A stretch of 50,640 nucleotides of DNA from Verrucomicrobia bacterium LW23 (GTDB taxonomy: Bacteria > Verrucomicrobiota > Verrucomicrobiia > Methylacidiphilales > UBA1321): NCBI GenBank assembly GCA_003054695.1, contig QAZA01000019.1:1-50640 (forward strand). Direction: 5' to 3'. The position numbers and the translations under genes were made by a program. Position 1 is the first letter of the stretch. Each line of letters starts with the position of its first letter. Below the pieces are notes generated by a model. That model had not been told where the DNA came from, searched no databases, and was given only the letters and a program-made list of their open reading frames with translations. Positions 26,401 through 44,499 of the stretch are shown one piece after another.

Positions 26401-28352
26401 AGCTCGGTAGATTCATTGCCGGATCATTGGACGGCACTATTTTTGCAACCACATACGACTCCGCAGGGCGTGTAGCTACTGAGACTAATTCGATCGGTAC
26501 TTTCACCTATAACTATGTAGGTAATACTAGTCGAATATCTGCTATAGTCTATCCTAATGGAATTACAGTCGCCTACGATTACGAGAATAATGTTAGTGAT
26601 AAACGGATCAAGCAAATCAAATATACCAATACCTCCAGTGTCGTTCTGGCTCAGTTTGATTATACGTACAACTCTGTCGGTATGATCCGGACTTGGCGCC
26701 AGCAACTCGGCTCTGACACTAACTCTGCTTATATCTGGAACCCGGCCTACGATTCGATCGACCAAATCATTGCTGTAGATGAGGTTAACGCAACCACCAA
26801 AGCCCTTAGGAAGCGCTGGGACTATGGTTATGACGCTGCTGGCAATCGCCTAACTGATACAGTCACGGATGCTGTCGCCCTCACGGTCTCCCCGTCATTA
26901 GCTACGTTTAACAACCTAAATCAGATTCTCACTCTCCTGCCTGACGCTGGAAAAATTGCGATTGAAGGTGCAACAGATAAAGAGGCTTCTGTCACCGTTA
27001 ACGGCCAACCCGTCCAACCGGATGCCAGCAAGCGCTTCACTTCAAGCATCCCAGTCCCAATTTCCCCTGGTGGTAACGTCAGCATCAGCATTACTGCTAC
27101 CGATAGTTCAAGTCAGACGACTACCAAGTCCTACAGCATCCCGATCACGCAAAGCGCCACGCCGAAGAGCTACGCCTATGACGCCAAAGGCAATACCATC
27201 TCTGATGGCGATCGAATATACACTTGGGATGCACTGAGCCAACTCATTGCCATCAACTACATCACGGGACCAAACGCAGGTGGAAGAACCGAGTTCATCT
27301 ATAACGGTAAACAGGAAAGAGTAGCTATTATTGAGAAGGATAGTTTGGGATCAATTATAAGTGATAAACGTTACATCTGGCTGGGTGCTACACACCCCGT
27401 AGAAGAACGTAATTCAAGTGGCTCAGTAATAGCGCGCTTCTCGCAAAGAGGAGAAAATCTAACAAATGCAAGCTCGCCCGATAATAAGCTCTATTATGTC
27501 CGCGATCATATTGGATCGATTCGCATGCTAGTAGACGAGAATGGAATTGTGCGAAGCGCATACGCATTTGATCCGTTTGGAAATAGAGAAAAAATTTCCG
27601 GCGATCTTAGTACTGACCATGCTTATACCGGGCATTTACTTCACGAAAGAAGTTCCTTATATTTGGCAAAGTATCGTCTATTCAACAGTGTAAGTGGCAG
27701 TTGGCTATCAAGAGATCGCTTGGGCGAATTTGGAGCAGACGGCCCAAATTTATATAGCTATGTTCGAAACAATCCTCTAAACTTAGTGGATCCTTTGGGA
27801 AATCAGAGTGAAACCGGGTCCGAAACTCATTGGTCGGAAGGTAGGAAAAATTCTAGGGATTATTTGAGGCTTGATTCCGAAATGCCAACGGGCCCCGGAG
27901 ATGCAAATGGTGATATTCACATTCATTACGGGCCAAATGAGGAGAAATACCACTTTAATACGGAAACCGGTCAATTCGAGACGGAGGATGGCAAAAGGCT
28001 TCCAAATAGTGTAAGAAAACAGCTGGCCAAGAACAAGGACTTCCAAAAGGAACTTACCAAAGCTTTTGATAAAATCAATAATAGATGCGGAGGATTTGCT
28101 GACTTGCACGGAGGCGGTAGATGGATTAACGGCGCCAGAGCCTTGGCTGGGTTCGCCGCCCTCATGCTTCTTTTAGAAGGCGATGAGAAAGCAGATAAAC
28201 TGGCTGAAATGGTACGCGAATACATAAATGCCAGTAGAGGTGAGGAAGTTGATGAGCTTGCAAAAACCTTTGCAGCAGCGGAAATTGCCAAAATGCTACA
28301 GGAACTAGCTCCCGGAGTTGGTACTGCAATATTCATGGATCTTATAAAATGA
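23439..28352 (+). CDS. RHS/YD-repeat exported toxin-like protein with variable C-terminal tip
   Basis: 1637 residues with a clear N-terminal signal peptide ('LIPLALCIWFLLAHQQVAVA', cleavage after AVA). Residues ~30-200 are an N-terminal domain I do not recognise, followed by a Pro/Gly-rich hinge and a DUF6531-like segment (~245-290). YD repeats span ~390-1340. An Ig-like insert with 'ASVTVNGQPVQPDASKRF' lies near 1185-1225. The RHS-core end shows 'YYVRDHIGSIRMLVD', 'YLAKYRLFNSVSGSWLSRD' and 'DPLGN' at ~1450. The last ~185 residues are the tip: a His/Tyr-rich part ('DIHIHYGPNEEKYHF'), a basic helix ('VRKQLAKNKDFQKEL') and an Ala/Leu-rich segment. I cannot assign the tip to a toxin family. The immunity-candidate gene overlaps the stop by 4 bp (ATGA). 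RHS identity is secure; tip activity is unknown. Confidence 0.92.
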   Translation: MSYRVVAIRLIPLALCIWFLLAHQQVAVADQINLRWSQYNGLGPPGSAGPGAYNDWYPISADKVTFVLRIRNSQTLVPGRYDVYRRISETSVEFLWHFYVMGDRQLYADSMGNHSSGSLGYTHEEPILFRQGKSENSNEPIHIIVERYPDDIRDPQAPIRMEKHWTIDYKFLTDHLEFWTQFPMLSYYVKPTDNKAYFDIGGDDYFQPNEGGTPKPQGGSGPEPGGSAPPPQPIFDDCSGGGVGMAKYTLDIARAGFNIIDTPLTYAVPRGPSVAFTLNYRLFDNSQESSMPFTNLGKHWSNSFISYIKGGPPAASENAWHFLAGGGQEEFVGLDKTHPGPGSGGFFERGPYSRSQLEWVNDGANSHFVLRTVGGSTLLFASPDKPGDPECRYFLTEAADSFGNKLTYTYETLPSNGGFRLIGVADAAGQITTLAYENSSFPLQITKVTDPFGRFASITYDGQGRLVSVIDPIGIVSSFAYDEHHAYLNRLITPYGTTSFDVQSTPGHQILEVTNTKGIKERVEFLLKNPHVLSAEPVADVPVVAQTHNTSLDTNNAYYWTREAIMHAAAENIQPGTPAFYQKAIVSHLLMGAGGVTRVVGSFKKPLESRVWLTFPGQTQSNALLGQKVKAPATVSRKLPSGQDQVLSSLYNDLGLPIETSDPLGRTNIYTYAANNKDLLSVQRRNGAGLDILASFSNYVNHVATTLTYASGQSTVLTLNAYGHLLTSTNAKNEVTTYTYEANGRLLTVARPGGFGIMMTYNANGNVQTITDTDGSSTSYDYDALNRNIRTTYPDSTFKEITYKHLDIEWTKDRVGRSTHYIYDTERKLISVEDPSGHTIKFGYCACGVLLSLTDARGHVTRWEYDVQSRVIKKLYPDNSQKTYTYDSAGRALTTTDIMGQLTTYSYNIDNTIAGSSWSNLASGTAATPPISYTYDTIYRRLLTMTDQTGTTSYTYNPFNGQPGAGRVLSITGPVGSGTYTMTGQYDELGRFIAGSLDGTIFATTYDSAGRVATETNSIGTFTYNYVGNTSRISAIVYPNGITVAYDYENNVSDKRIKQIKYTNTSSVVLAQFDYTYNSVGMIRTWRQQLGSDTNSAYIWNPAYDSIDQIIAVDEVNATTKALRKRWDYGYDAAGNRLTDTVTDAVALTVSPSLATFNNLNQILTLLPDAGKIAIEGATDKEASVTVNGQPVQPDASKRFTSSIPVPISPGGNVSISITATDSSSQTTTKSYSIPITQSATPKSYAYDAKGNTISDGDRIYTWDALSQLIAINYITGPNAGGRTEFIYNGKQERVAIIEKDSLGSIISDKRYIWLGATHPVEERNSSGSVIARFSQRGENLTNASSPDNKLYYVRDHIGSIRMLVDENGIVRSAYAFDPFGNREKISGDLSTDHAYTGHLLHERSSLYLAKYRLFNSVSGSWLSRDRLGEFGADGPNLYSYVRNNPLNLVDPLGNQSETGSETHWSEGRKNSRDYLRLDSEMPTGPGDANGDIHIHYGPNEEKYHFNTETGQFETEDGKRLPNSVRKQLAKNKDFQKELTKAFDKINNRCGGFADLHGGGRWINGARALAGFAALMLLLEGDEKADKLAEMVREYINASRGEEVDELAKTFAAAEIAKMLQELAPGVGTAIFMDLIK

Positions 28353-28960: not shown

Positions 28961-29911
28961 ACCTGCGTCCTATGCAAAAAATAATAACCCTTGGAAGTTG
29001 TTGATGTTGAGCGCCTAACAAAACGCCAAAAACCTCCAATATCGTTCCACTTTTATGCAGCTTTTCGCGAATAGTGGCGCAACAATCCGCCCAATTTGGA
29101 GTCGCATTGGATGTCTTCCGGCCGGAGCGGCGCTGCCTGCGTTGGAAACGGAATGATGTTTCCGATCGTCCGGTTCGCGATCCCCTGGTGCGGCCGAACC
29201 GTGTTATAATAGGACGCGAATTCCCGCAGCAAAAACTCCAGGTGCTTCTGTCCAAAAACCACGAAATGCCTCAAACACTCATTTTTGATGGTCTGCACGA
29301 GCCGCTCCGCGAAGGCGTTCAGATTGGGAGACTCTCGCGGAAGCTTTTTGACTTTGATACCTTCGCTTTTGAAAACTTCGTCAAACGCCTGGGTGAATTT
29401 GGTGTCTCCGTCGCGCAGCAGGTAGGATACTTTTTCGCCCCGATCCTGCAAATCCATGACAAGATTACGGGCTTGTTGTTCGACCCACGCCCCGGTCGGA
29501 CTGCAGGTGGCACCCGAGATGTGGACTCGCCTGGAACCTACGTGGATGAAGAAAAGTACGTAGAAAGTGACTTTACCTCCTGCAGTCCAGATATCTTTCG
29601 TGAAAAAGTCCGTGGCCCACAGTGTCTCCATGTGGAGTCGGATAAAGCGGTCCCAGTCCCCCTTCGTTCTCCACGGAGATGGATGGAAACCGTTGATGAT
29701 CAAGGTCTTTTTTATGGTATTGTTGGCGACAACAACGCCAAGCTTCTTGAGTTCGCCTCCGATCCGGGCATAGCCCCAGGCGTTCTCCTTGGCCATGCGC
29801 AAAATCAGGGCGGTGACGTCCGGCGAAATGGTTGCCCGGCCCGGTTTGCGGGGCGTAACTTTAACATTCGTTCCATCCCGTTCTCTACGAACCCATTGCA
29901 GAAACGTCTTA

Positions 29912-29934
29912 GACCAATTCCATGCGTTAATCGG
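29912..29934 (+). repeat. IS630 left terminal inverted repeat
   Basis: GACCAATTCC-ATGCGTTAATCGG; it matches the right repeat at 31047-31069 in 22 of 23 positions. Confidence 0.9.
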
Positions 29935-29978
29935 TAAAAACAGGTTGCCCTTTTGGCGTGGATTCGCTACGGTGGGGA

Positions 29979-31043
29979 ATGCCACGACCTATGACGCAGT
30001 TGACGTTGTCGGGAGAAGAGCGGGAGCGACTGGAGAAGGAATTTCGCGAGACCGGCGATGTGCGCACGCGCACTCGGCTGGGGGCGTTGCGGATGCTGTG
30101 CGGCGGCACCCATACGCTGGCGCAAGTTGCTGAGGCTGTGGGCTGTGCGCGCAGCACGCTTCAGGTATGGGTGGCGGCGTACCGGCGGGGAGGGCTGGAG
30201 CAGGCGGTGCTGCGCGAGAAGCCCGGGGCCAGCTCCAGCCCGATGCAAGATGCTGGCCTGCAACAACAACTGCGCGAAAACTTCGCCGCCGGCGCCTTCC
30301 GCACCTGTGAGCAGATGCGCCGCTGGCTTCGGGCGACGCACGGCATCGTCCTGCATCTCAAGGCGGGCTACTACTGGCTAAAATCCTTCGGCGCGAAACT
30401 GCGGGTGCCGCGCCCGGTGCACATCAAGAAGGACCCGCAGGCCCCGGCCGCCTTCGTCGCCGGGCTGGAGGACACCCTGGCCGCCCTGCCGCTGAGGCCG
30501 GGTCGCCCGGTGCGGGTGTGGGTGGAGGATGAGGCCCGCTTCGGCCTGCACACCCTGGTGCGCCGCTGCTGGGCACTGCCCGGCGTGCGCGTGGTGCTGG
30601 CGCATCAACGCAAGTACCAGTGGGCGTATATGTTCAGCGCCCTGGAGATCGGCACCGGGCGCCACGTCCCCCTCTGGATGCCCGGCGTCGACCTCGGCAT
30701 CACCACCACCTTCCTCGAGCACCTCGCCGCCAGCGAGCCCGGCGCCGAACACATCATCCTCTGGGACGGCGCCGGCTTCCACCCCCGCCCCGAGCTCCAC
30801 CCGCTGCCCGCCCACATCCACCTGATACGCCTGCCCCCCTACAGCCCCGAGCTCAACCCCGTCGAAAAGCTCTGGGACATCGTCAAAGACGGCATCAGCA
30901 ACACCATCTTCCCCACCCTCGACCTCCTCTACGAGCACGGCCTGGTGCCCGAACTCGAACCCTTCAAAAACCCCAACCGCGTCCTCCAACTCCTCGGCAA
31001 CAGCTCCATGATCGCTTCAGTAAACGCTTCCTCCATAAGGTAA
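29979..31043 (+). CDS. IS630-family transposase
   Basis: 354 residues from ATG 29979; GTG 29958 and ATG 29991 are alternatives. Residues ~20-130 form helix-turn-helix DNA-binding domains ('TLAQVAEAVGCARSTLQVWV'). The DDE domain carries D184 ('VEDEARFG'), D263 ('ILWDGAGFH') and E296 ('PPYSPELNPVEKLW'), with a D-E gap of 33 as in IS630/Tc1 enzymes. Length and motifs are complete, so the element may be active. Its GC content is much higher than the IS it sits in. It is read opposite to the interrupted transposase. Confidence 0.93.
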   Translation: MPRPMTQLTLSGEERERLEKEFRETGDVRTRTRLGALRMLCGGTHTLAQVAEAVGCARSTLQVWVAAYRRGGLEQAVLREKPGASSSPMQDAGLQQQLRENFAAGAFRTCEQMRRWLRATHGIVLHLKAGYYWLKSFGAKLRVPRPVHIKKDPQAPAAFVAGLEDTLAALPLRPGRPVRVWVEDEARFGLHTLVRRCWALPGVRVVLAHQRKYQWAYMFSALEIGTGRHVPLWMPGVDLGITTTFLEHLAASEPGAEHIILWDGAGFHPRPELHPLPAHIHLIRLPPYSPELNPVEKLWDIVKDGISNTIFPTLDLLYEHGLVPELEPFKNPNRVLQLLGNSSMIASVNASSIR

Positions 31044-31046
31044 ATA

Positions 31047-31069
31047 CCGATTAACGTATGGAATTGGTC
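31047..31069 (-). repeat. IS630 right terminal inverted repeat
   Basis: CCGATTAACG-TATGGAATTGGTC; partner of 29912-29934 with one mismatch, followed by the TA duplication. Confidence 0.9.
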
Positions 31070-31290
31070 TTATAGTGCACAATCTTCAAGATTTCCCGGA
31101 TCGAGCTGCCCAGCGGCGCCCCGAGGCGGACCAGGACCGAGCGTTCAGCAGGTGTGGTCTGAATGGTTTTCGGCAACCGGGAGCGCAGGATCTCATTTTC
31201 CGCTTTCAAATAGGCGATCTGGCGAAGCAATGCAGAGTGTGTGACATAAACTAAAAAGGCGAGCAATGGATTGCGGGCGAAAAACGACAT

Positions 31291-31656
31291 AAAAGGGACT
31301 GATCAGAATGGCCAAAAGTGGCGGATTTTGGTAGGATTTAATTGCTCCAATGGGATTGCTTGAAAAATGCAGTTTCAGAGGAGTCCGAGGCGGAAGAGCA
31401 TTTTTGCATAGCGCTATTCTATAGGGTCTACCGGGCGGGTGAAATCAGGCCTTCCGGCAGTTCAAAAATAGAAGCGAATCTGATCGACTTCCGGCCATGA
31501 TCCCCATAAATAGATGGATTTTCGCGGATGCGGGAGAAAGTCGGAGGACCGGCAGAATACAGGAATCCCATCCCCCTCTGAAAACGGGAATGCTTTAGCG
31601 AATAAATCACTATACCCCTCCTAAGTAAAACCGGTTCGTTTTCGGTTGTGCTTGGG
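31291..31656. other. IS copy B leader, truncated
   Basis: The untranslated region upstream of the copy B transposase, alignable with the leaders of copies A, C, D and E but lacking the last ~130 bp including the true right terminus. The minus-strand open frame seen in the other leaders is missing its start here. No gene found. Confidence 0.6.
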
Positions 31657-31742
31657 CGTCCTATGCAAAAAATAATAACTCTTGGAAGTCGTTGATGCTA
31701 AGCGCCTAACAAAAAGTTAAAAACCTCCAGAATCGTTCCACT

Positions 31743-32816
31743 TTAAGCTGTTTTCCGCGAATAATGGCGCAGCAAACCACCCAATTTGGCGGTGCATTGA
31801 ACCTCTTCTGGCCGGGGTGGCACTGCCTGAGTTGGAAACGGAATGATGTTGCTGACGGTCCGGTTCGCGATCCCCTGATGCGGCCGGACGGTATTATAAT
31901 ACTCGCCAAATTCCCGAATCAAAAACTCCAGGTGCCGTTGGCCAAATACCACGAAATGCCTCAAGCACTCATTCTTGATAGTCTGCACGAACCGTTCCGC
32001 GAAGGCGTTGAGATTGGGAGACTCCCTGGGAAGTTTCTTCACCTTGATTCCCTCACTCTTGAAAACCTCGTCAAAGGCCTGGGTGAATTTGGTATCTCCA
32101 TCTCGCAGGAGATAGGAGACTTTCTCGCCACGATCCATCAAATCCATCACGAGATTGCGTGCCTGTTGCTCGACCCAAGGCCCGGTGGGATTGCAGGTGG
32201 CACCCGCGATGTGCACTCGCCTGGTCCCAACATGGATGAAGAAAAGCACGTAGAAAGTGACTTTACCTCCTGCGGTCCAGATATCTTTGGTGAAGAAATC
32301 ACAGGACCACAGAGTCTCCATATGGAGGCGGATGAAGCGATCCCAGTCGCCCCGCACCCTCCAAGGCGAAGGATGGAAGCCATTGACAATCAACACCTTC
32401 TTGATCGTATTGTTGGCCACTGGGATCCCGAGTTTTTTGAGTTCGCCTGCGATCCTGGCATAGCCCCAGGCGTTTTCCTTTGCCATGCGCAGAATCAGGG
32501 CGGTGACATCCGGGGGAATAGTGGGCCGGCCAGGCTTGCGGGGCGTAACTTTAACATTCGATCCATCTCGTTCTTTCCGAACCCATTGCAGAAACGTCTT
32601 GTAGTGGACGATGCCGAGGACTTCTCGAATCGAGCTGCCCAACGGCGCTCCGAGGCGGACCAGTACCGAACGTTCAGCCGGTGTGGTTTGGATAGTTTCC
32701 AACCGGGACCGCAGGATCTCGTTTTCAGCTTTCAAATAGGCGATCTGCCGAAGCAATGCAGAGTGTGTGACATAAACTAAAAAGGCGAGTAGAGGATTCT
32801 TGCGGAAAAATGACAT
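31743..32816 (-). CDS. Intact IS transposase with rve integrase core, copy C
   Basis: 357 residues starting at the ATG whose first base is 32816 ('MSFFRKNPLLAF'). A longer in-frame reading from 33089 runs back into the IS leader and is absent from other copies. Residues ~15-45 are a leucine-rich coiled stretch ('LRQIAYLKAENEILRSRL') like the OrfA zipper of IS3-type elements. A helix-turn-helix follows at ~95-140 ('ILRMAKENAWGYARIAGELKK'-type segment). The integrase core has 'WSCDFFTKDIW', 'LLRDGDTKFT' and 'NAFAERFVQTIKNEC' as the D, D, E blocks and ends 'YYNTVRPHQGI'. Unlike most IS3 elements, DNA-binding and catalytic parts form one frame without programmed frameshift. A related single-ORF family (IS481-like) is possible. 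No Shine-Dalgarno precedes the ATG. Confidence 0.9.
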   Translation of the reverse strand: MSFFRKNPLLAFLVYVTHSALLRQIAYLKAENEILRSRLETIQTTPAERSVLVRLGAPLGSSIREVLGIVHYKTFLQWVRKERDGSNVKVTPRKPGRPTIPPDVTALILRMAKENAWGYARIAGELKKLGIPVANNTIKKVLIVNGFHPSPWRVRGDWDRFIRLHMETLWSCDFFTKDIWTAGGKVTFYVLFFIHVGTRRVHIAGATCNPTGPWVEQQARNLVMDLMDRGEKVSYLLRDGDTKFTQAFDEVFKSEGIKVKKLPRESPNLNAFAERFVQTIKNECLRHFVVFGQRHLEFLIREFGEYYNTVRPHQGIANRTVSNIIPFPTQAVPPRPEEVQCTAKLGGLLRHYSRKTA

Positions 32817-33324
32817 AAAGGAACCGATCAGAATGGTCGATTGTGGGGGATTTTGGTAGGATTTAATTGCTCCAACTGGTTTGCATCCAAAATGTGGTTC
32901 CAGAGGAGTGCGATGCCGGAACGACATTTTTGCATAGCGCTTTTCGTGGGGGGGCTGCCTGGGCGGGCAAATTCGGCCTCGTGGGAGCTCAAAAATAGAT
33001 GCGAATTTGATCGATTTTCGGCCATTGGCCTCATATATAGATGAAATTTCGTGGATACGGAAGAAACGCCGAAGGGTTTGCAGATCCACGAATCCTTCCC
33101 ATCAACTACCATCCCATCTTCCCTCTGAAAACGGGAATGCTTCAGCGCAAGAATCACTATACCCCTCCTAAGTAAAACCCGGTTCGTTTTCAGGTGTGCC
33201 TGGGGTCTACTAATCTTACGGATTTCGAACTTTTCCTGTTTCTCTCTCTCCGATAAGTACTTCCGTCTGTTATAGAGGACTAACAAACTCTATTTTAATT
33301 TATTTTCTAGGTGTGCATGGGGAG
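32817..33324. other. IS copy C leader, ~510 bp without a supported gene
   Basis: Conserved leader between the transposase start and the right terminus. It contains the internal near-copy of the right terminus (GGTGTGCCTGGGG near 33193-33205) and a minus-strand open frame from 33286. The AT-rich 40 bp next to the terminus may hold the transposase promoter. Confidence 0.6.
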
Positions 33325-33642: not shown

Positions 33643-33748
33643 CGTCCTATGCAAAAAGTCATAACCCTTGGAAATCGTTGATCTTGAGCGACTAACAAAA
33701 TGCCAAAAGCCGCCTGAATCGTTCCACTTTTATGCCGCCTTTCGCGAA
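33643..33748 (-). repeat. Solo IS left end
   Basis: 106 bp matching the left end of the IS family, from CGTCCTATGCAAAAA through the transposase stop-codon region to TTCGCGAA, then the similarity stops. Same orientation as copies A-E. The ~97 bp between it and the arsS stop codon hold no recognisable gene. Confidence 0.8.
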
Positions 33749-33845: not shown

Positions 33846-35708
33846 CTATCCGCCGCTGAGGCTCTGCAGCGTGGCGCCGGAGCAACTGCTGCCGGAGCCG
33901 GCGGTGCAGCCAAAGCAATGATCTCCCAGGGCAATGTCCCGGCTATCCAGTGCGGAGATATCGATGTCCCACACGGATAATGGGTTGCCGTTGCGCCACT
34001 GCATGCCGAGCTGCTGGTTGAAGTCGCAGTCGTACACCTCCCCTTGCCAGCCGATGCTGAGCGTGTTCCGGCACATCAGCCTGTCAACCGCTGCGGGATT
34101 GAAGGAGGTGCGCAGCAAGTCCATGTAGTCGTCCAGCTTGCCGTTGTTTTTCAGCCAGGATTTGTAGCGGGCGATGGGCATGTTGGTAATGGCAAAGAGG
34201 CGGTGAAAATCGATGCCAAAGTGGTGCTTTAGCTCGCGCTTGTAGTCCGCCTCCAGCTCCGCCTGATCGGGCGGGAGGAAGGCGCCATTGGGGTTGTAGA
34301 CTAGGTCGAGCGGAAGCTCCTCGCTTCGGCCGTAGCCCAGGCGGTTGAGCACTTGCAGTGCGCGGATGCTAGCATCAAAGACGCCGTCGCCGCGCTGGGC
34401 GTTAACGTTGGCGGGCTCGTAGCACGGCATGGAGGCCACTATTTTTAGGCGGTGCTGCGCAATAAACTGTGCCGCCCACTCATAGCCAGGCTCGAGCAGA
34501 ATGGTGAGGTTGCAGCGGTCGATGATCGTCTCCACCTGGGGAAGGGCGCGCAGGCGTTGGATGAAGTAGCGGAAGTCGGGGATCATCTCCGGGGCACCGC
34601 CCGTCAGGTCCACTGTGTGGATATCCGTGGTTTCCAGCCAGGCCACAATGCGGTCGATGGTCTCGCGGGTGATGATTTCCTTGCGCTTTGGCCCGGCGTT
34701 GACGTGGCAGTGCACGCAGGTGAGGTTGCACAGCTTACCGGTATTGATCTGCAATATTTCTGTACCCCCGCGCCGCAGAGTAAGCCCGCGCTGTGAGAGT
34801 ACGTGCGCAAAGCCCTGGCTATCCGTTTTCGCCCCCGCCACCTGCTGAAGCGGGAGAGCGTCGGGCGAGATGATATCTTGCGATGCCTCGCCTTCGCGTA
34901 GATGGGGTGTGGTCATAAAATGGGGACGGTGCGGTACGAGGGCCGGTTCGTCAGATGCTGTTGACACCATCCGTGCCAGGGCAGTCCGGCGGGGGATTGG
35001 CCGCCTTTTTTTACGCCAGGCCAGTTGGCCGATGGTGCGCAGTATTATGGTGCCAGCCATTAGCGTGCCGCGAATGGTGCCGGAAATCTTTTGCTGACCG
35101 GCGGGGCGCGGATAGGTGCGGACGGGGATCTCCACGATGCGCAGGCCTTCTTCCGCGGCGCGCACCTGCATCTCCACAGTCCAGCCGAAGCCGCGGTCTT
35201 GCATCTCCAGCCGGCGATAGGCTTCCACGCGGATGGCGCGCTGCGGCCCCAGATCGCGGAAGCGATACCCCCAGATGACGCGGATGAGGAAGGGCGCGAG
35301 CCAGTTCCCAAAACGCTGCGGAAGCGACATGGCGTGGCGATCCTCCGCCATGGTGCGGCAGCCCAGGATGAGGTCGTGGCCGGGCGCCAGCTCCGCGTAG
35401 CGGTGGAGGGCGTCCAGGTCATCGCTGGCATCGGCATTGCAGTAGAGCAGCCACACCACGTCCGGCGGCACTTCTTCCCCACCCACCCAGCACGCAAGGC
35501 CATACCCGGCCCTGGGGTGGGAGATGACCTCGGCACCCGCATCCGCGGCGCGCTGAGCGGTTCTATCCCGACTGGCGTTCTCCACCACGCGTATGCGCTG
35601 GAATCCGATCTCGCGCAAGCGCCGGACGACATCGCCAACGCACTCCTCCTCGTTGTGGGCAGGAATGATCACGAGCGTCTGTGAGGCGAAAGCGTCAAGT
35701 GTCGGCAT
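33846..35708 (-). CDS. arsS: Glycosyltransferase (GT2)-ArsS fusion, arsenosugar biosynthesis radical SAM protein
   Basis: 620 residues from the ATG whose first base is 35708 ('MPTLDAFASQTLVII'); the longer frame from 35954 overlaps arsM and lacks similarity. Residues ~1-235 are a family-2 glycosyltransferase ('IIPAHNEEECVGDVVRRL', 'YCNADASDDLDAL', 'RDLGPQRAIRVEAYRRL') like the rSAM/selenodomain-associated transferase. From ~265 the protein is ArsS: radical-SAM cluster motif 'CNLTCVHCHV' (Cys 327, 331, 334), 'DLTGGAPEM', 'MPCYEPANVN', and the Cys-rich end 'MCRNTLSIGW', 'YDCDFNQQLGM', 'HCFGCTAGSGSSC'. ArsS attaches a 5'-deoxyadenosyl group to dimethylarsenite. In related proteins a C-terminal residue may be selenocysteine; here all are Cys. 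The two parts are usually separate genes. ATG 34916 could also start ArsS alone. Cytoplasmic, downstream of arsM. Confidence 0.9.
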   Translation of the reverse strand: MPTLDAFASQTLVIIPAHNEEECVGDVVRRLREIGFQRIRVVENASRDRTAQRAADAGAEVISHPRAGYGLACWVGGEEVPPDVVWLLYCNADASDDLDALHRYAELAPGHDLILGCRTMAEDRHAMSLPQRFGNWLAPFLIRVIWGYRFRDLGPQRAIRVEAYRRLEMQDRGFGWTVEMQVRAAEEGLRIVEIPVRTYPRPAGQQKISGTIRGTLMAGTIILRTIGQLAWRKKRRPIPRRTALARMVSTASDEPALVPHRPHFMTTPHLREGEASQDIISPDALPLQQVAGAKTDSQGFAHVLSQRGLTLRRGGTEILQINTGKLCNLTCVHCHVNAGPKRKEIITRETIDRIVAWLETTDIHTVDLTGGAPEMIPDFRYFIQRLRALPQVETIIDRCNLTILLEPGYEWAAQFIAQHRLKIVASMPCYEPANVNAQRGDGVFDASIRALQVLNRLGYGRSEELPLDLVYNPNGAFLPPDQAELEADYKRELKHHFGIDFHRLFAITNMPIARYKSWLKNNGKLDDYMDLLRTSFNPAAVDRLMCRNTLSIGWQGEVYDCDFNQQLGMQWRNGNPLSVWDIDISALDSRDIALGDHCFGCTAGSGSSCSGATLQSLSGG

Positions 35709-35752
35709 GGATGGGCAGGCAGGGGATAGATTTGCCGGGGTGTATTGGCTTG

Positions 35753-35822
35753 GCCGGAACGATTCCGAGGGGAGGCTCAAGCTTTTTCCCCACTGGGCTG
35801 CTCCCGTGTGAATCGTTCCGGC
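35753..35822 (-). promoter_or_regulatory. Long hairpin between arsM and arsS
   Basis: Perfect 13-bp arms GCCGGAACGATTC (35753-35765) and GAATCGTTCCGGC (35810-35822) around a 44-nt loop, which itself can pair GGGGA with TCCCC. It stands 10 bp after the arsM stop and 45 bp before the arsS start. No U-run follows on the minus strand, so it is not a typical terminator. It may act in mRNA processing, differential expression or attenuation. Function not shown. Confidence 0.6.
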
Positions 35823-35832
35823 GTAGCGGGGC

Positions 35833-36984
35833 TTAACAACAGCTGCTGCTGCCGGCACCGCCGTCGCAGCACTGGCTGCTGGCCAGGGTAGTCGCGCTGT
35901 AGCTTTGCCCTTTTGTCTCCCTGGGGTGACGGCGTGCGGTGCGGCTGCAGTCATAGGGTGCGGCGCTTTCCGGCGTTATGGGCTGGAGCGGGTCGATGAA
36001 GTCAAAATAGGCCGCATAGGGCGCTTTTTTGTAGAGATTATATGTTTTGTCGCACACGGCGTACCGCACGCCGCGCTCCATGCGATGGCCGTCATCATCC
36101 AGGACCTCCCTAAAGGGGCCGCGATAGATGACCGCCTGATTGCGCTCGAAGCACGCGCCCTGCTTTCCCTTGTAGGCCCGCACGGTCATGGAGCGAAATT
36201 CAATTCCCTCCACCGTGCGCCACGGCTGCACATCCAGCTTCAGCACTTCGATGCCGTAGAATCCCGCATCTGCGAATGCCTTCAGAAAGCCTTCCTCCGT
36301 CAGCGCTCCGGAGATGCAGCCGCTCCACAGGTCCGGATCGTTCTGCATGTGTTCCGGCACCTGTTCATCGCATACGATGTCTGAGATGACGGCCCGGCCC
36401 CCATTCTTCAGCACGCGAAAGATCTCGCGAAACAATTGCGGCTTGGCCTGCGGCTCGACAAGATTCAATACGCAGTTGGAGACCACGACGTCAATGGAAT
36501 CGGTGGCGATCAGCGGCTGTGTAACGCGGAGCTCGTCCGCGGAGGAGAGGAACGCCGCGGAATCCAGCACGGGGTGCCGCTTCAGCTCCGCATCCAGCGC
36601 TTCCAGATCGAGGGACAGATCCTGGATGCGGCCTTTGCGAAACTCGACGTTGGCGTGGCCTATGCGCTCCGCCACGATGGGCGCGTTGCGGCGGGCCACT
36701 TCCAGCATGTCATCCGTCATATCCACGCCGATGACTTTACCGAGCGGCCCCACCACTTGGGAGGCGATGAAGCAGATCTTGCCGGTTCCGGATCCGAGAT
36801 CGAGCACCGTTTCGCCTTCGTGTACGTGTTTGCTGGGATCGCCACAGCCGTAATCTTTCTCAATCACTTCCGCCGGAATCGCTTCCAGATATTTCCTGTC
36901 ATAAACGACGGGACAGCACAGGGCGGCTTCCGGCGCTTTGGCGGCACCAGCGTAGCGATCTTTAACTGCGTTCTCAGTTTTCAT
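35833..36984 (-). CDS. arsM: Arsenite S-adenosylmethyltransferase ArsM with cysteine-rich tail
   Basis: 383 residues from the ATG whose first base is 36984 ('MKTENAVKDRYAG'). The Rossmann methyltransferase domain has the SAM motif 'VLDLGSGTGKICFIA' and 'GVDMTDDMLEVARRN'. Arsenic-binding cysteines fit the ArsM pattern: 'CCPVVYD', 'KDYGCGDP', 'VSNCVLNLV' and 'SGCISGAL'. The C-terminal region from ~260 ('CFERNQAVIYRGPF', 'VCDKTYNLYKK') matches the usual ArsM extension. The tail ends with 'SSQCCDGGAGSSSCC', a likely metalloid-binding cysteine cluster. ArsM methylates As(III) stepwise with SAM in the cytoplasm, giving the substrate for ArsS. It is first in a two-gene minus-strand unit with arsS and divergent from the FAD oxidoreductase gene. 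No Shine-Dalgarno and no ArsR-type operator is obvious in the 176-bp divergent gap. Confidence 0.94.
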   Translation of the reverse strand: MKTENAVKDRYAGAAKAPEAALCCPVVYDRKYLEAIPAEVIEKDYGCGDPSKHVHEGETVLDLGSGTGKICFIASQVVGPLGKVIGVDMTDDMLEVARRNAPIVAERIGHANVEFRKGRIQDLSLDLEALDAELKRHPVLDSAAFLSSADELRVTQPLIATDSIDVVVSNCVLNLVEPQAKPQLFREIFRVLKNGGRAVISDIVCDEQVPEHMQNDPDLWSGCISGALTEEGFLKAFADAGFYGIEVLKLDVQPWRTVEGIEFRSMTVRAYKGKQGACFERNQAVIYRGPFREVLDDDGHRMERGVRYAVCDKTYNLYKKAPYAAYFDFIDPLQPITPESAAPYDCSRTARRHPRETKGQSYSATTLASSQCCDGGAGSSSCC

Positions 36985-37160
36985 GGGAGGGTGCAACAAT
37001 GAAGAAGTCTGAAGCAAAAATTTGTATGGAGTTTACCATCCTTGGTCGTGGGAGCGGAAAGGGCAATCATTTATTCCCAAAAAATCAGCGGTGGCACCTC
37101 TTCTTGCATCATGCGGTAATAAGCGGAATAAAACGAGAATCGTTCCACTCCCACTGAACA

Positions 37161-38561
37161 ATGAGCACCCGAAGCATCGTTATCCTGGGAAACGGGATCA
37201 CCGGCATCACCGCCGCCCGTAACATTCGCAAGCGCTCGGACGACGACCGCATTACGGTAGTCTCCGGCGAAACGGACCACCATTTCTCGCGCACCGCCCT
37301 GATGTACATTTTTATGGGCGACATGACGTATGCCGATACCAAGCCCTATGAGGACGGCTTCTGGCCGAAGAACCGCATTGAGCTGAAGCGCGGCTGGGTG
37401 GACGCGATCGACACTACTGCAACGCGCCTTACCTTCAGCAATGGCGACTCGCTCCCTTATGACGAGCTGATTATCGCGACTGGCTCCCAACCGAACCGCT
37501 TGGGCTGGCCGGGGCAGGATCTTCAAGGCGTGCAGGGTCTTTACTCCTTGCAGGACCTGGAATCCATGGAGAAGCTCTGCCCGACAACGAAGCGCGCCGT
37601 CATCGCCGGGGGCGGCCTGATTGGCGTGGAGGTGGCGGAGATGCTGCTGACGCGCGGCATTGCGGTAACGTTCCTGGTTCGCGAGAAGTCCTTCTGGGGC
37701 AGCGTGTTACCGGAGGGGGAATCGAAGTTGGTGGGCCGGGAGATATTGCGCCACGGCATTGATCTGAGTCTACAATCGGAGATCCAGGAAATTCTGCCCG
37801 ACGCGGCGGGGCGGGCCCGGGCAGTGAAGACGAAGGCTGGCGACGAAATCCCGTGCGAGATGGTGTTCCTCACCGCCGGCGTAAGCCCCAACATCGCGGT
37901 GGCCAGGGCAGCTGGCGTGGAGTGCGACCGCGGGGTGCTGGTCGACGAGTTTTTTCGCACCGCAACTCCCCACGTGTGGGCCGGGGGCGACTGCGCGCAA
38001 CATCGCACCGTGCCGGCGGGGCGCCGCCCCGTGGAGCAGGTGTGGTACACGGGCAAGCTGCACGGCGAGCACATTGCCGCCAACATTTGTGGCGAGAGCC
38101 TGCCGTACCAGCCGGGAATCTGGTTCAACTCCGCCAAGTTTTTTGACATAGAGTACCAGACCTACGGCACGGTGCTGCCGAAGCCGCGGGATGGGGAGCA
38201 ATCCTTCTACTGGGAGCACCCGGACGGCGATAAGTCGATTCGCGTGAACTTTCGCGGCGATACGGGGGAGTTGGTTGGCGTGAATGTCTTCGGCATCCGT
38301 CACCGCCACCTGGTATGGGAGCACTGGATCGCCGCCGGCACAACCGTTACGGAGGCCATGTCCGACCTCGGCGCGGCCAACTTCGATCCGGAATTCTTCC
38401 GCCAGTACGAGCCGGAGATCGTCGCCGCGTTTAATGCCGCGCACCCACAAAGCGCTGCCACACTGCGCACGCGTAAGGGGCTGTTCACCCGCGTCTTCCA
38501 GCGGCTCTTCAAAAGCGCGTCGCCCCGAGGCGCTGTTGCTGTTTCCGCCATGACTCCGTAA
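37161..38561 (+). CDS. FAD/NAD(P)-dependent pyridine nucleotide-disulfide-type oxidoreductase
   Basis: 466 residues. The N-terminal FAD-binding motif 'IVILGNGITGITAARNIR' starts at ~6. The second dinucleotide motif 'AVIAGGGLIGVEVAEMLL' is near 150. The conserved 'IIATGSQPNR' and the FAD ribityl-contact motif 'VWAGGDCAQ' are present. Residues ~310-430 form a C-terminal domain ending in a basic tail. There is no CxxxxC redox disulfide, so it resembles nitrite-reductase/rubredoxin-reductase-type enzymes rather than glutathione reductase. It is divergent from arsM and followed 61 bp later by a polyferredoxin membrane gene, suggesting an electron-transfer pair. The role in organoarsenical chemistry is inferred from location only. 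Confidence 0.87.
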   Translation: MSTRSIVILGNGITGITAARNIRKRSDDDRITVVSGETDHHFSRTALMYIFMGDMTYADTKPYEDGFWPKNRIELKRGWVDAIDTTATRLTFSNGDSLPYDELIIATGSQPNRLGWPGQDLQGVQGLYSLQDLESMEKLCPTTKRAVIAGGGLIGVEVAEMLLTRGIAVTFLVREKSFWGSVLPEGESKLVGREILRHGIDLSLQSEIQEILPDAAGRARAVKTKAGDEIPCEMVFLTAGVSPNIAVARAAGVECDRGVLVDEFFRTATPHVWAGGDCAQHRTVPAGRRPVEQVWYTGKLHGEHIAANICGESLPYQPGIWFNSAKFFDIEYQTYGTVLPKPRDGEQSFYWEHPDGDKSIRVNFRGDTGELVGVNVFGIRHRHLVWEHWIAAGTTVTEAMSDLGAANFDPEFFRQYEPEIVAAFNAAHPQSAATLRTRKGLFTRVFQRLFKSASPRGAVAVSAMTP

Positions 38562-38622
38562 TACATACCTCACTGGCGACATCCCGTCCGCTTCCATCAA
38601 TCCCTTTATCGTCTGTTTTCCT

Positions 38623-40011
38623 ATGAAAGATCTCACGGCAAATCTGGCGTACGAGAGCCATTCCCTTACCCCCGGCGGCCATCGGCTGGCGCCCCTGGAG
38701 CAACTTGGCCTGGCCCTGTGCGGCGTCGGCTTTATGGTACTACTGGCAGGTTACTTTACCGCATCGGATGTCTCCTCTGGTGTCCGGGCCATATGGCTGG
38801 GCCTGGCGTGGGGCGGCGTTGTCAGCGGCACGCTCCTCTACGGCCTGCACAAGCACCTTTCGGAGAACGCCGGCGTGCGAAATCACGGCAAGACCACGGA
38901 GAGCCTTACCGCACGCGGGGCGCTGGGGTGGATTCTAGCCGTCCTGCTCACGGCGTTCTACGTCGTCCTCTACTGGTTTCCCGAGATGTTTGGCGGCATC
39001 ACACGCCTGCACGATCCCCTGAGCCAGGCATTGCGCGGGCGTCCCGCGGACCACTGGTTCCTTTATGGCACGGCCTATACGGTAGGCACGACGATCATGG
39101 GGGCCAAAGCGTTGGCCAAGTACCGGCACAGCCGCTATCAAGTCGTGCGTACTCTGGTGATCATGGCATCCCAGCTTGTCATGGCCTATCTGTTGCCCGG
39201 GTTTCTCGCCAGCATCAACCAGCCGGAGGCCTACCTGACCTATTTCTGGCCGCTGGCGTACGAGAATCTGTTCCCCGGCTCCATCCAGGGCCTGATGAAC
39301 CGCGGCGCCTTTGGCACGTTTGTCGTGGCGTGGTCCTTTATCTCCATTTTTGTCGCCACGCCCATACTGACGTACTTCTATGGCAAACGCTGGTACTGCT
39401 CCTGGGTATGCGGCTGCGGCGGCCTGGCCAACACAGTAGGCGATTCGTTTCGGCAGATTTCCGATAAGTCCCTGCGGGCGTGGCAGGTCGAGCGCTACAC
39501 CGTTTACGGCGTGCTGGTCTTTATCGTGCTGGTAACCGGCCTGCTGTGGCTGGAGCCCTACATGCCCGCCTACATGCACGAGCCCCTGTACATGCTGCGC
39601 AAGACTTACGGCTTCCTTATCGGCATGGTCCTCGCCGGCGTGGTTGGCGTGGGTGCTTATCCGCTGATGGGCACGCGTGTGTGGTGTCGATTCTTCTGCC
39701 CGATGGCGGCAGTGCTGGGCATCATTCAGCGCTTTTTCTCTCGATTTCGCATTACTACCAATGGCGGCCAGTGCATTTCCTGCGGCAACTGCTCCAAGTA
39801 CTGCGAGATGGGTATCGACGTGCGCTCGTACGCCCAGCGCGGCGAGAACATTGTGCGCGCATCGTGCGTCGGCTGCGGCGTCTGCGCCACCGTCTGCCCC
39901 CGCGGCGTCTTATCCCTGGAGAACGGCCCTACCGAGGATCGCCTGAAGGGATACACCGCGCCTACGCAGCCGGTCATCACGAAGTCAGTCAAGCGGGTCG
40001 CGATGCGGTAA
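38623..40011 (+). CDS. Membrane-bound polyferredoxin (NapH/NosR-like 4Fe-4S protein)
   Basis: 462 residues with about eight hydrophobic segments (first near 28-50, last near 330-350). The membrane domain carries two Cys pairs of the Fer4_5 type, 'YCSWVCGCGG' near 262-271 and 'RVWCRFFCPMAAVLG' near 352-366. Two ferredoxin clusters follow: 'CISCGNCSKYCEMGI' (~385-399) and 'CVGCGVCATVCPRGV' (~413-427). Such NapH/CcoG/NosR-like proteins move electrons across or along the inner membrane. It is 61 bp downstream of the FAD oxidoreductase gene, so the two may form a membrane electron relay supplying the radical SAM enzyme. That link is speculative. The gene is complete. Confidence 0.88.
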   Translation: MKDLTANLAYESHSLTPGGHRLAPLEQLGLALCGVGFMVLLAGYFTASDVSSGVRAIWLGLAWGGVVSGTLLYGLHKHLSENAGVRNHGKTTESLTARGALGWILAVLLTAFYVVLYWFPEMFGGITRLHDPLSQALRGRPADHWFLYGTAYTVGTTIMGAKALAKYRHSRYQVVRTLVIMASQLVMAYLLPGFLASINQPEAYLTYFWPLAYENLFPGSIQGLMNRGAFGTFVVAWSFISIFVATPILTYFYGKRWYCSWVCGCGGLANTVGDSFRQISDKSLRAWQVERYTVYGVLVFIVLVTGLLWLEPYMPAYMHEPLYMLRKTYGFLIGMVLAGVVGVGAYPLMGTRVWCRFFCPMAAVLGIIQRFFSRFRITTNGGQCISCGNCSKYCEMGIDVRSYAQRGENIVRASCVGCGVCATVCPRGVLSLENGPTEDRLKGYTAPTQPVITKSVKRVAMR

Positions 40012-40072
40012 GTCTGCATTCCCGCCAGGAGTGCGCTTTTACTTTGTTCCCTCGCCGACCTAAACTGAGCCC

Positions 40073-41512
40073 ATGATCGGAATCACCCCCAGGCAAAGCT
40101 GGATGCTGGGCTGCGCGCTATCCATCGCTATGCTGGCCGGAGCATTCGTAGCGCTGCCCTATGGCAAAATGCATCAAGCCGGCAACATCCCCCCGTTTTT
40201 GGCGGGGGCGGGGCTGATGCTGGCCGCGTTTGCGGGCGCAATGATGGCAGGCCGGAAGTGTCTGCTCTGCACGGAGTCTGATCGCGATTCCGTTTCTCAT
40301 ACTGATGCTGATTCCGGCTCTGGCACCAGGCAACGTCACCCGTCGTTCCCCATTCCCCTCCCGCTCATCGCTATCGCCGCGGTGGCGATACGCGTGGTAC
40401 TTCTCTTCCAGGCGCCCGGGGATGATCTCTACCGGTACATCTGGGAGGGCAAACTGCTGCTGGCACAGAAAAGCCCCTACCTGCATGCTCCCGACTCTGC
40501 CGGGCTGGTGCCCCTGCGTGACGCGAACTGGGAATCCGTAGAGCACAAGAGCGTCTCCGCGATCTACCCGCCCATGGCGCAGTGGTGCTTTGCCGCGCTC
40601 CATGCCATCGCTCCCACGATCCTCTGCTACAAACTGGCATTTGCCGCGGCGGATCTCGCCACGGGCTGGCTGCTGTGGCGGCGCTTTGGTGGCGCGGCAT
40701 CCCTCCTTTATCTGTGGAATCCTCTCGTCATCTACTCCTTTGCCGGCGGCGGCCATTACGACAGCCTCTTCATTCTGCCCCTGGTAGCAGGCTGGCTGGC
40801 CTGGATGCGGGAGAAAACGGTGGCCGGCGTCCTGTGGATCGGCGTTGCTGTGGCCATGAAGTGGCTGGCGCTCCCCATCCTGGGCTGGGCGGTGTGGCAA
40901 GTGATGCGCAAGCGCGGCCTCGTGGCGGCGCTGCCCGCCGGGGCATTGGCATTACTTGTGGGCATGGCGCCGTTCGCCGGATGCTGGCTGGCACTGCTGG
41001 TGTGGACGGGAGAGTGGTCATGGCAATTGCATCCACGCGCCTTTACCGAGGTGGCCCGCAGCGCGGAGTTGGTGCCAAGCCTGGTGGTAGTCTTTTGGCC
41101 GGATGCGGCGCAGGGTAACCAGTGGATTCTACCGCTGATGGCCATGGCGTGGGCTGTTGTCATCCTTTCGTGCAACAGAATAACCACTGCTATGGAGTGG
41201 ATCTTTTTTACGACACTTATCCTTTCGCCCGTCGTCCACGCATGGTACTTCACCTGGCTCATCCCCTGTGCCGTCGCGAGCCGAAACCTCGGCGCCATCC
41301 TCGTCAGCGGCTCCGCATTCGCCTATTTTCTCATTCATCACCGCCTCAGCGCGGATTGGGAGCTCAAGTGGACCTTCACCCCAACGGAGCTGGTTATCAT
41401 CTGGCTGCCCTACGTCACCGGCTTCCTCTGGACGTATCTCCGCCGCCAGTCCCCGGATTCACCCTCGCCTGCCGCCGATACCACCGATGACAACCGCCTG
41501 CCTCTTTCTTAA
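40073..41512 (+). CDS. Integral-membrane GT-C/GT87-like glycosyltransferase
   Basis: 479 residues with at least ten hydrophobic helices. The first luminal loop carries 'DDLYRYIWEGKLLLAQKSPY', characteristic of polyprenyl-phosphate-hexose-dependent GT-C enzymes (DUF2029/GT87), and later 'YPPMAQWCF', 'LYLWNPLVIYSFAGGGHYD' and 'HAWYFTWLIPC' also fit. A Ser/Asp-rich loop near 65-90 may be cytoplasmic. It would transfer a sugar from a lipid carrier outside the inner membrane. It starts 61 bp after the polyferredoxin gene and overlaps the next gene by 26 bp, so the four plus-strand genes look like one operon. Substrate unknown; a role in arsenosugar or arsenolipid decoration is inferred from location. 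Confidence 0.85.
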   Translation: MIGITPRQSWMLGCALSIAMLAGAFVALPYGKMHQAGNIPPFLAGAGLMLAAFAGAMMAGRKCLLCTESDRDSVSHTDADSGSGTRQRHPSFPIPLPLIAIAAVAIRVVLLFQAPGDDLYRYIWEGKLLLAQKSPYLHAPDSAGLVPLRDANWESVEHKSVSAIYPPMAQWCFAALHAIAPTILCYKLAFAAADLATGWLLWRRFGGAASLLYLWNPLVIYSFAGGGHYDSLFILPLVAGWLAWMREKTVAGVLWIGVAVAMKWLALPILGWAVWQVMRKRGLVAALPAGALALLVGMAPFAGCWLALLVWTGEWSWQLHPRAFTEVARSAELVPSLVVVFWPDAAQGNQWILPLMAMAWAVVILSCNRITTAMEWIFFTTLILSPVVHAWYFTWLIPCAVASRNLGAILVSGSAFAYFLIHHRLSADWELKWTFTPTELVIIWLPYVTGFLWTYLRRQSPDSPSPAADTTDDNRLPLS

Positions 41513-42125
41513 AGCCCCGCGCGCCGGAACCGTCAAGACACGTCTGGCCAGGGATATCGGTGCCGACCGTGCCCTGGCCGTGTACCGCGCCCTTGTGGAG
41601 CGCCAGGCCGCGGCGCTGCCACCAGCCTGGAGCGTTGTCGTCAGCTTTGCCCCGCACGATGCACTGGAGGAGATGGAATCATGGCTTCGCCCCCGCTTCC
41701 CCCAAGGCGTCCGATTCGAGCCCCAGTGTGACGGCGACCTGGGAGACCGCCTCGCAAGTGCTGTGCAGCGCGAGTTCCTGCAGTGCGGTGCCACCCGGCT
41801 ATTCCTGCTGGGTGGCGATTGCCCCCAAATCACCGCCGACTACCTGCACAAAGCGGAAGCATCCCTGGAAACTCACGATATGGCTGTCGGCCCGGCCCAA
41901 GACGGCGGCTACGTGCTGCTGGGCCTGCGCTCCCCTCTCACGGCACTTTTTGAAAACATTACCTGGAGCACCCCCGTTGTGCTGGCCCAGACCCTGGCTG
42001 TCGCTAAGCACCTGTCGCTCTCCATTGCCACCCTACCCACTTTGGAGGACGTCGACAACCTGGAAAGCCTAGAGCGCCAAAACCACGCATTCCTTACCCA
42101 CGCCGCCGGCCTGCGCAAAGCCTGA
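41487..42125 (+). CDS. DUF2064 transferase (rSAM/selenodomain-associated transferase 1 family)
   Basis: 212 residues from ATG 41487, which overlaps the GT-C gene by 26 bp; the longer frame is rejected because its extra 73 residues are low-complexity shadow sequence. The GT-A fold is shown by 'FLKAPRAGTVKTRLARDIG' at the start, 'LFLLGGDCPQI' (~108-118) and 'VGPAQDGGYVLLGL' (~137-150), the hallmarks of the DUF2064 family. That family is repeatedly found next to arsS and annotated as an arsenosugar-associated glycosyltransferase. Its presence with arsM, arsS and the GT2 domain completes the typical gene set. The stop codon TGA (42123-42125) is followed at once by CGTCCTGTGCAAA, which resembles the IS left terminus. 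Confidence 0.9.
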   Translation: MTTACLFLKAPRAGTVKTRLARDIGADRALAVYRALVERQAAALPPAWSVVVSFAPHDALEEMESWLRPRFPQGVRFEPQCDGDLGDRLASAVQREFLQCGATRLFLLGGDCPQITADYLHKAEASLETHDMAVGPAQDGGYVLLGLRSPLTALFENITWSTPVVLAQTLAVAKHLSLSIATLPTLEDVDNLESLERQNHAFLTHAAGLRKA

Positions 42126-42554: not shown

Positions 42555-42688
42555 CGTCCTACGCAAAAAATAATAACCTTTGGAAGTCGTTGATGTTGTG
42601 CGCCTAACAAAACGCCGAAAACCTCCAGAATCGTTCCAGTTTTATGCTGCTTTTCGCGAATAATGCCGCAGAAGTCCGCCCAACCATG
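42555..42688 (-). repeat. Solo IS left end
   Basis: About 130 bp from CGTCCTACGCAAAAA through the last 13 transposase codons ('LGGLLRHYSRKAA' on the minus strand) to GTCCGCCCAA, then directly followed by the left end of copy D. Same orientation as the complete copies. Confidence 0.82.
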
Positions 42689-42780
42689 CGTCCTATGCAA
42701 AAAATTTTAACTCTTGCAAGTCGTTGATATTGAGCACCTAACCTAACAAAACGCCAAAAGCCATGAATATCGTTCCACTT

Positions 42781-44363: not shown

Positions 44364-44499
44364 GTTCATTGTTCGTCCCGTTCGCTCCGGCATTGTTCGC
44401 GGAAAGCGGCATAAAAGTGGAAAGATTCTGGCTGTTTTCGGCGCTTTGTTGGGCACTCAAAATTAACGTCTTCCAAGGGTTGAATTTTTGCGCAGGACG
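44364..44499 (+). repeat. Solo IS left end, inverted
   Basis: Reverse-oriented remnant. Read on the minus strand from 44499 it gives CGTCCTGCGCAAAAA and TTCCACTTTTATGCCGC. On the plus strand it encodes 'SLRHCSRKAA', the transposase C-terminus. It lies between the right end of copy D and the stop codon (44501-44503) of the leftward gene. It is the only piece of the family in this orientation and is more diverged than the others. Confidence 0.75.

Follow-up and report, generated by a model that had tools for sequence, protein, structure and literature searches.

An in-frame fusion of a DPM1/ArnC-like glycosyltransferase with ArsS in a verrucomicrobial arsenic cluster, and a proposed polyprenyl-phosphate relay in arsenosugar or arsenolipid synthesis

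In Verrucomicrobia bacterium LW23, a family 2 glycosyltransferase (GT2) and the radical-SAM protein ArsS are encoded by one minus-strand open reading frame (ORF), located at 33846-35708 of a 50,640-nucleotide stretch of contig QAZA01000019.1 (assembly GCA_003054695.1), hereafter the window. This GT2-ArsS fusion is a very rare, one-off variant. We put at roughly 0.55 the probability that read-through joined two neighboring genes in this lineage alone, giving a protein of two independent domains, of which the GT2 works with a membrane glycosyltransferase of the GT-C type, encoded in the same cluster, in a lipid-carrier relay.

The fusion frame extends from the ATG at 35708 to the stop codon at 33846-33848 and encodes 620 amino acids (aa), with an estimated mass of about 69 kDa. 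The surrounding open frame (33846-35954, minus strand) measures 702 aa from its first ATG and 709 aa from stop to stop, with no internal stop. An earlier note on this DNA had given the interval 33846-35708 without a strand; the coordinates are correct, the gene lies on the minus strand, and a plus-strand reading is ruled out by nine stops in that frame. The note's statement that a single 620-residue frame holds both enzymes is confirmed, the frame being stop-free and both parts scoring above their cut-offs: 30.9 bits for PF00535 (Glycos_transf_2; cut-off 23.3), 34.5 bits for Radical_SAM (cut-off 29.5), 184.9 bits for DUF3641 (cut-off 24.9) and 433.2 bits for TIGR04167 (curated cut-off 300), the last spanning residues 311-612 and identifying the C-terminal part as an ArsS. 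The ArsS core (33873-34778, minus strand) covers positions 2-302 of the TIGR04167 model and carries the CX3CX2C radical-SAM cluster motif of ArsS at 34707-34730 (minus strand; residues 327-334, read from the sequence). The GT2 domain, delimited by alignment with 13 relatives and by a predicted model, is DPM1/ArnC/AglJ-like and occupies 35004-35687 (minus strand; residues 8-235), and a linker of 29 codons (34917-35003, minus strand; approximately residues 236-264) joins the two. A sequence search of the PDB at E 1e-4 returned no match to either domain. When the whole fusion was aligned with its single-domain relatives, the GT2 rows reached only 16-21% identity and are therefore probably misplaced there; this alignment was not used for folding.

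The GT2 domain differs from the glycosyltransferase annotated at arsenosugar loci. Against TIGR04283, the arsenosugar glycosyltransferase family, it scores 27.2 bits where 182 are required, which rules out membership in that family, and thus the description of this domain in the earlier note as the usual GT2 transferase of such loci was a misnomer. Its best NCBIfam match is AglJ (TIGR04182; 95.3 bits, cut-off 325), with lower scores, likewise below cut-off, for dolichyl-phosphate hexose transferase (46 bits), PpgS (40 bits) and GpgS (34 bits). A model predicted from 14 sequences, i.e., the window GT2 and its 13 relatives (39-66% identical to it), attained a predicted local distance difference test (pLDDT) score of 90 and a predicted template modeling score of 0.88. 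The nearest fold to this model is that of DPMS (5mlz; Z 22.8, root-mean-square deviation (rmsd) 3.2, 225 residues aligned), and ArnC is close to it (9bhe; Z 21.4, rmsd 3.2, 219 aligned). The domain thus has the DPM1/ArnC-type fold, one that also fits GpgS, and we infer that it is a DPM1/ArnC-type glycosyltransferase acting on polyprenyl phosphate.

The likeness to GpgS deserves separate consideration, as it admits a different activity: a GpgS/MpgS-like GT2 would transfer activated arsenoribose to a glycerol-type acceptor, yielding glyceryl arsenosugars in the cytoplasm. The folds of both GpgS and MpgS rank with those closest to the GT2 model, and their acceptor resembles the glyceryl aglycone of known arsenosugars. 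Glycerol arsenosugars are named in a passage of one source (PMC10456119). However, the window GT2 is nearer in sequence to polyprenyl-phosphate transferases (95 bits for AglJ vs. 34 for GpgS), and in several lineages GT2s of its type are fused to, or lie close to, a lipid-carrier-type GT-C, which leaves a GpgS/MpgS-like role doubtful.

A link between the GT2 and the arsenosugar pathway is indicated by co-occurrence. Sixty genomes of the same order were searched, several of them incomplete, and six were ArsS-positive (G013, G016, G017, G021, G026 and G036). Relatives of the window GT2 with at least 50% identity are present in all six and in none of the 54 ArsS-negative genomes; the six come from only four families, so that these counts do not represent six independent events. 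Similarly, a homologue of the GT-C enzyme encoded at 40073-41512 (plus strand) was found in five of the six ArsS-positive relatives, as opposed to none of ten controls drawn from the 54 ArsS-negative ones. In four of the six (G017, G026, G021 and G013) arsM, GT2 and arsS follow each other in this order as separate ORFs, with GT2 and arsS overlapping by 14 bases in G017 and by ATGA in G026, separated by a transporter-like ORF (judged by eye) in G021, and separated by a gap in G013. In the remaining two, the GT2 gene lies 2 kb from arsS on the opposite strand in one and on another contig in the other. None of the six shares the GT2-ArsS fusion of the window. None of the 11 genomes searched from the same family gave a strong ArsS match, so the cluster is patchily distributed, which may reflect acquisition or frequent loss.

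Where the GT2 is fused in more than one genome, its partner is not ArsS but the membrane GT-C. Both are contained in a single frame of 645-668 aa in G016, G036 and G446, the first two being the ArsS-positive relatives in which gene order is not conserved. Moreover, the GT-C is found in one frame with a TIGR04283-like GT2 in four further genomes (G441, G443, G450 and G451; 679-704 aa from stop to stop), where the GT2 parts score 117-171 bits against TIGR04283, below its cut-off of 182; for two such loci (L046 and L047) Pfam shows both domains. Across 80 ArsS loci, the GT-C occurs in seven and a DPM-like GT2 in seven, with both in four; at the other three GT-C loci a TIGR04283-type GT2 adjoins the GT-C, these being the fusions just described. 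By tblastn, 40 of the 80 loci have a GT2 of the TIGR04283 type.

The predicted model of the 40073-41512 protein (pLDDT 76) shows a GT-C fold, and its close matches include GPI mannosyltransferase I with bound Dol-P-Man (Z 20.5, rmsd 3.9, 342 aligned), PimE (Z 16.9, rmsd 4.0, 334 aligned) and ArnT (Z 13.8, rmsd 4.5, 257 aligned), besides PIG-U (within the GPI transamidase), ALG3 and ALG6. To judge from the record titles, GT-C enzymes, or complexes containing one, make up nearly all of the 46 top-ranked fold matches. Five of the nine members of the GT-C alignment match GT87 (best E 3.6e-6). The modeled fold is that of enzymes dependent on polyprenyl-phosphate sugars, and lipid-carrier glycosylation is known to proceed in two steps, by a DPM1/ArnC-type synthase and a GT-C enzyme. 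Collectively, the co-occurrence of GT2 with ArsS, the co-occurrence of the GT-C and the GT2-GT-C fusions support the assignment of the GT2 to the arsenosugar pathway. A role of the GT2 in the pathway, which the earlier note had drawn from the fusion, thus gains support on independent and better grounds, namely the co-occurrence and the GT-C link.

On these grounds we propose that arsenosugars or arsenolipids are made by way of an ArnC/ArnT-like relay on polyprenyl phosphate, the cargo of which could be either arsenoribose or an ordinary sugar. In such a pathway ArsM would yield dimethylarsenite, to which the ArsS domain would add a 5'-deoxyadenosyl group, an adenosylation known for ArsS from Cheng et al. 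(2021), as cited in PMC12159101. The adenine would then be removed from the ArsS product; a relative of the guanylyltransferase CofC, belonging to TIGR04282 and encoded in the cluster, may make a nucleotide-activated sugar; the GT2 domain would load this sugar onto a polyprenyl phosphate carrier; and the GT-C would pass it from the carrier to the final acceptor across the membrane. Since the GT2 resembles enzymes that load lipid carriers, at least two chemical steps, presumably adenine removal and activation of the ribose, would lie between it and ArsS. A more specific and distinctly tentative version has arsenoribose as the cargo, with nucleotide-activated 5-deoxy-5-dimethylarsinoyl-ribose transferred by the GT2 to polyprenyl phosphate and from there by the GT-C to a membrane lipid. 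If this were true, the cluster would encode an arsenic counterpart of the ArnC/ArnT route, i.e., a genetic route to arsenosugar lipids, and the first enzyme and the lipid-loading enzyme of that route would be one protein in this genome.

Several observations weigh against a GT2/GT-C relay. None of the NCBIfam equivalog cut-offs for polyprenyl-phosphate transferases is reached by the GT2, AglJ being the closest with 95 of 325 bits. GpgS and MpgS, which glycosylate phosphoglycerate, reach Z 21.1 on the GT2 model, compared with 22.8 for DPMS, and stood beside ArnC in the ranking of the first fold search; given this near tie of GpgS with DPMS and ArnC, the fold does not separate the two types of enzyme. 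The DAD motif of the GT2 lacks its first acidic residue, reading NAD in the window and in five of the 13 relatives and DAD or DGD in the others. As to the GT-C, the window protein has no Pfam match up to E 1, GT87 included, and the 68%-complete genome G017 contains GT2 and ArsS with no GT-C match. Finally, removal of adenine can be assigned to none of the assigned ORFs of the cluster.

How exceptional the fusion is was assessed in five samples of ArsS matches (22, 71, 136, 122 and 118; 469 in all), which may share genomes and in which some matches are cut by contig ends that could hide fusions. Only 12 of the 469 lie in frames of at least 500 aa, and it was within these frames that a GT2 was sought: the window, L048 (genome G439), one each in G365 and G527, and eight planctomycete frames. 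A GT2 is present in two of the 12, the window and L048, and the two GT2s belong to different subfamilies. The L048 frame, from an Akkermansiaceae metagenome-assembled genome, encodes 570 aa and joins a TIGR04283-like GT2 (162 bits, cut-off 182) to an ArsS (432 bits). A Pfam scan of the frames of L124 (G365), L188 (G527) and L072 revealed no GT2. In the eight planctomycete frames (L229-L236), checked by blastp alone and not by a scan with hidden Markov models, the region upstream of ArsS had no match at E 1e-3 to the window GT2, two TIGR04283-type GT2s, the GT-C, the TIGR04282 protein or ArsM, and most of these upstream parts look like Arg-rich out-of-frame sequence. The ten long frames without a GT2 are accordingly taken as open frames that run into neighboring genes. 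Among 115 loci, more than 200 residues are open before ArsS in L048, L072 and L124, besides the window's own two copies. Two peculiarities seen among the ArsS matches are recorded here: a single match to the TIGR04282 query (4.5e-5) within the ArsS part of L231, which is unexplained and was not used, and an ArsS match in G603 (contig C181:3369-4271) that spans three in-frame TGA codons, attributable to selenocysteine, another coding or decay.

These counts bear out the earlier note's premise that GT2 and ArsS are usually separate, with two of 469 ArsS matches sharing a frame with a GT2. Its further proposal, to look for the same fusion in other genomes, yielded none among these matches, the GT2 of L048 being of another subfamily. 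The note had also seen in the fusion a sign of channeling between the adenosylation of arsenic and sugar transfer, which would imply a bifunctional enzyme maintained by selection. The occurrence of a second, non-orthologous GT2-ArsS fusion in L048 speaks for such an enzyme. Against it stand the two cases in 469, the absence of the fusion from every ArsS-positive relative in the order, an unconserved linker that resembles a former gene tail (see below), the two or more chemical steps presumed to separate ArsS from the GT2, and a repeated fusion partner of the GT2 that is the GT-C; channeling thus finds no support and appears very improbable.

The junction suggests how the fusion arose. Conservation of the GT2 core extends to about residue 235, and in the four relatives with separate genes the GT2 stops no more than about 20 residues from there; the linker that follows shows little conservation and many Arg and Pro residues. 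Immediately before the linker lies a run of seven A (35006-35012, minus strand), the likeliest-looking spot for a frame change, its place being putative. Read in the +1 phase from this run, the sequence is open for 32 codons and ends in the TGA of an ATGA at 34913-34916 (minus strand), in which the in-frame ATG of ArsS overlaps the +1-phase stop, an arrangement shared with the separate GT2 and arsS genes of G026. An overlap of this kind is commonplace in this genome, where -4 is the most frequent start-stop spacing of neighboring ORFs (57 cases; the next has 13). An ATGA with the +1 phase open over the 31 preceding codons occurs at 98 of 1409 internal ATGs (7%) in ORFs sampled from the same genome. 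As the +1 phase closes exactly in this ATGA, where ArsS begins, a small frame change in coupled neighboring genes is the most likely origin of the fusion, and the linker has the look of an earlier GT2 gene end, now read out of its frame. A net gain of one base, or an equivalent change, near the end of the GT2 gene would have removed the stop that overlapped the start of arsS; the product would most likely be one 620-residue protein whose two domains work independently across a short, unconserved linker. We read the frame change that joined the two genes as fairly recent, a reading that falls short of proof. A programmed frameshift at the seven-A run (AAA AAA AGG, with AGG used 3.7 times per 1000 codons) was also considered, and is possible with nothing in its support.

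Codon signal bears on this origin as well. Within the linker, the +1 phase outscores the fused one by 5.6 bits, an excess matched by 3.6% of 166 ORF ends. This signal is weak, and it counts against the proposed origin that true +1 gene ends have a median of 21 bits, only 11% of them lying at or below 5.6. The same features also fit an assembly base error, in which case GT2 and arsS would really be separate genes overlapping by ATGA, as the earlier note had foreseen in naming a sequencing error among the findings that would refute it. The exact closure of the +1 phase at ATGA, the seven-A run directly before the linker and the arrangement in G026 would all be consistent with such an error, and no genome of the same genus was among the relatives searched, so there is no second sequence with which to compare the junction. 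To gauge homopolymer accuracy, coding phase was compared on either side of runs in 334 kb of the genome plus the window. All 52 runs of at least six bases with a strong signal on both sides keep phase, including all eight of at least seven, a result that does not single out the seven-A run itself. Additionally, the frames of the FAD oxidoreductase, NapH-like, arsM and GT-C genes match those of relatives over most of their length, and the TIGR04282 protein scores above its cut-off. On the other side, the signal was too weak for a judgment at 203 of 255 runs of at least six (43 of them of at least seven). Of the runs of at least five, 381 keep phase, two show a phase shift on the same strand and one a change of strand. 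The phase test thus argues against an assembly error with most runs unjudgeable, and we regard such an error as unlikely.

Even with a genuine fusion frame, ArsS might be made from an internal start, leaving the enzymes separate or producing both forms. The in-frame ATG at 34916 (residue 265), which the earlier note had pointed out as the start that could undo the fusion, is indeed present, and another lies at 34970 (residue 247). The ArsS match in L050 begins at exactly the residue encoded by ATG 34916 and has an ATG there too, and the unconserved, Arg- and Pro-rich linker points the same way. However, ArsS start points vary in other relatives, and no ribosome terminates at the ATGA in the fused phase, so that reinitiation cannot serve arsS. 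By eye, no Shine-Dalgarno-like sequence precedes ATG 34916, nor does one precede ATG 35708, so this favors neither start. Separate production of ArsS seems a minor prospect, and a single protein with two independent domains remains the reading we favor.

The fusion gene stands within the arsenosugar cluster (33849-42125). It is preceded on the same strand by a gene for an arsM-like methyltransferase (35833-36984, minus strand), for which homologues indicate the ATG at 36984, the listed ORF starting at TTG 37017. The protein is named for its best matches, all below cut-off: NF040538 (328 of 500 bits), the arsenite methyltransferase NF008823 (206 of 263) and the arsenosugar ArsM NF038099 (141 of 400). 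Divergent from these genes, on the plus strand, are those for an FAD/NAD(P) oxidoreductase (37161-38561), which also stands beside arsM-GT2-arsS in G013, G021 and G026 (67-68% identity), a NapH-like membrane ferredoxin protein (38623-40011; NCBIfam matches below cut-off), found in the same three loci (60-61% identity), the GT-C (40073-41512), and the TIGR04282 protein (41487-42125; CofC/DUF2064-like, 172.7 bits against a cut-off of 134). In the G013 locus (L117), the NapH-like gene adjoins an ORF at 11136-11903 whose product resembles the nucleoside phosphorylase MTAP (172 bits where 275 are required) and could remove adenine from the ArsS product.

With 61.8% G+C, the cluster does not stand out from the genome sample (52-65%, with most values above 60%), and the rest of the contig, which contains several full and partial repeat copies, has 54.8%. 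Two transposase-bearing repeat copies of about 1.67 kb (31657-33324 and 42688-44367), in the same orientation and 80% identical, flank the cluster, and nearer to it on either side lies a short copy of a single repeat end (33643-33748 and 42555-42682), as in an old composite transposon. The ORF at 31746-33089, which encodes the transposase, matches IS481 weakly and below cut-off. In a further copy (28966-31656), an insert carrying a second transposase-like ORF (29958-31043, by eye) interrupts the repeat at about 29911/31060. The window also contains three very large ORFs at 4-4689 (1561 aa), 16934-23410 (2158 aa) and 23439-28352 (1637 aa), the last encoding what appears by eye to be a YD-repeat/RHS-like protein.

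To our knowledge, the steps that follow ArsS in arsenosugar and arsenolipid synthesis have no assigned enzymes. Among the papers listed in a literature survey, judged by title and abstract opening and with most subscription journals outside its coverage, none concerned a GT2-ArsS fusion or a lipid-carrier step for arsenosugars. The fusion led to a GT2 and GT-C set that tracks with ArsS in the order and matches a polyprenyl-phosphate sugar relay in its folds. Thus, the GT2/GT-C pair is a more useful lead than the fusion itself, making the pathway question experimentally testable. One-frame combinations now include GT2 with GT-C, GT-C with a TIGR04283-like GT2, the latter with ArsS, and GT2 with ArsS.

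Compared with known systems, the window protein agrees with ArsS (TIGR04167) in its full-length match, its CX3CX2C motif and its position downstream of arsM and GT2 sequences, and differs in bearing an in-frame N-terminal GT2, as does one other sampled protein (L048). TIGR04283 proteins are GT2s that likewise occur near arsS and, in L048, in fusion with it, but the window GT2 is of another subfamily (27 bits, cut-off 182); the database label "arsenosugar glycosyltransferase" therefore covers only part of the GT2 types at such loci. GpgS and MpgS are nearly equal to the nearest enzymes in fold similarity to the GT2 but score lower in sequence, and we know of no GT-C partner for them. The closest parallel is offered by ArnC/ArnT and DPM1/PIG-M, which present the same pair of folds that shares one cluster in the window and one frame in G016, G036 and G446. 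Identity in the structural alignments with DPMS, ArnC, GPI mannosyltransferase I and ArnT is nonetheless low (14-23%), and, unlike those pairs, the window pair belongs to an arsenic cluster, its carrier, sugar and acceptor being putative.

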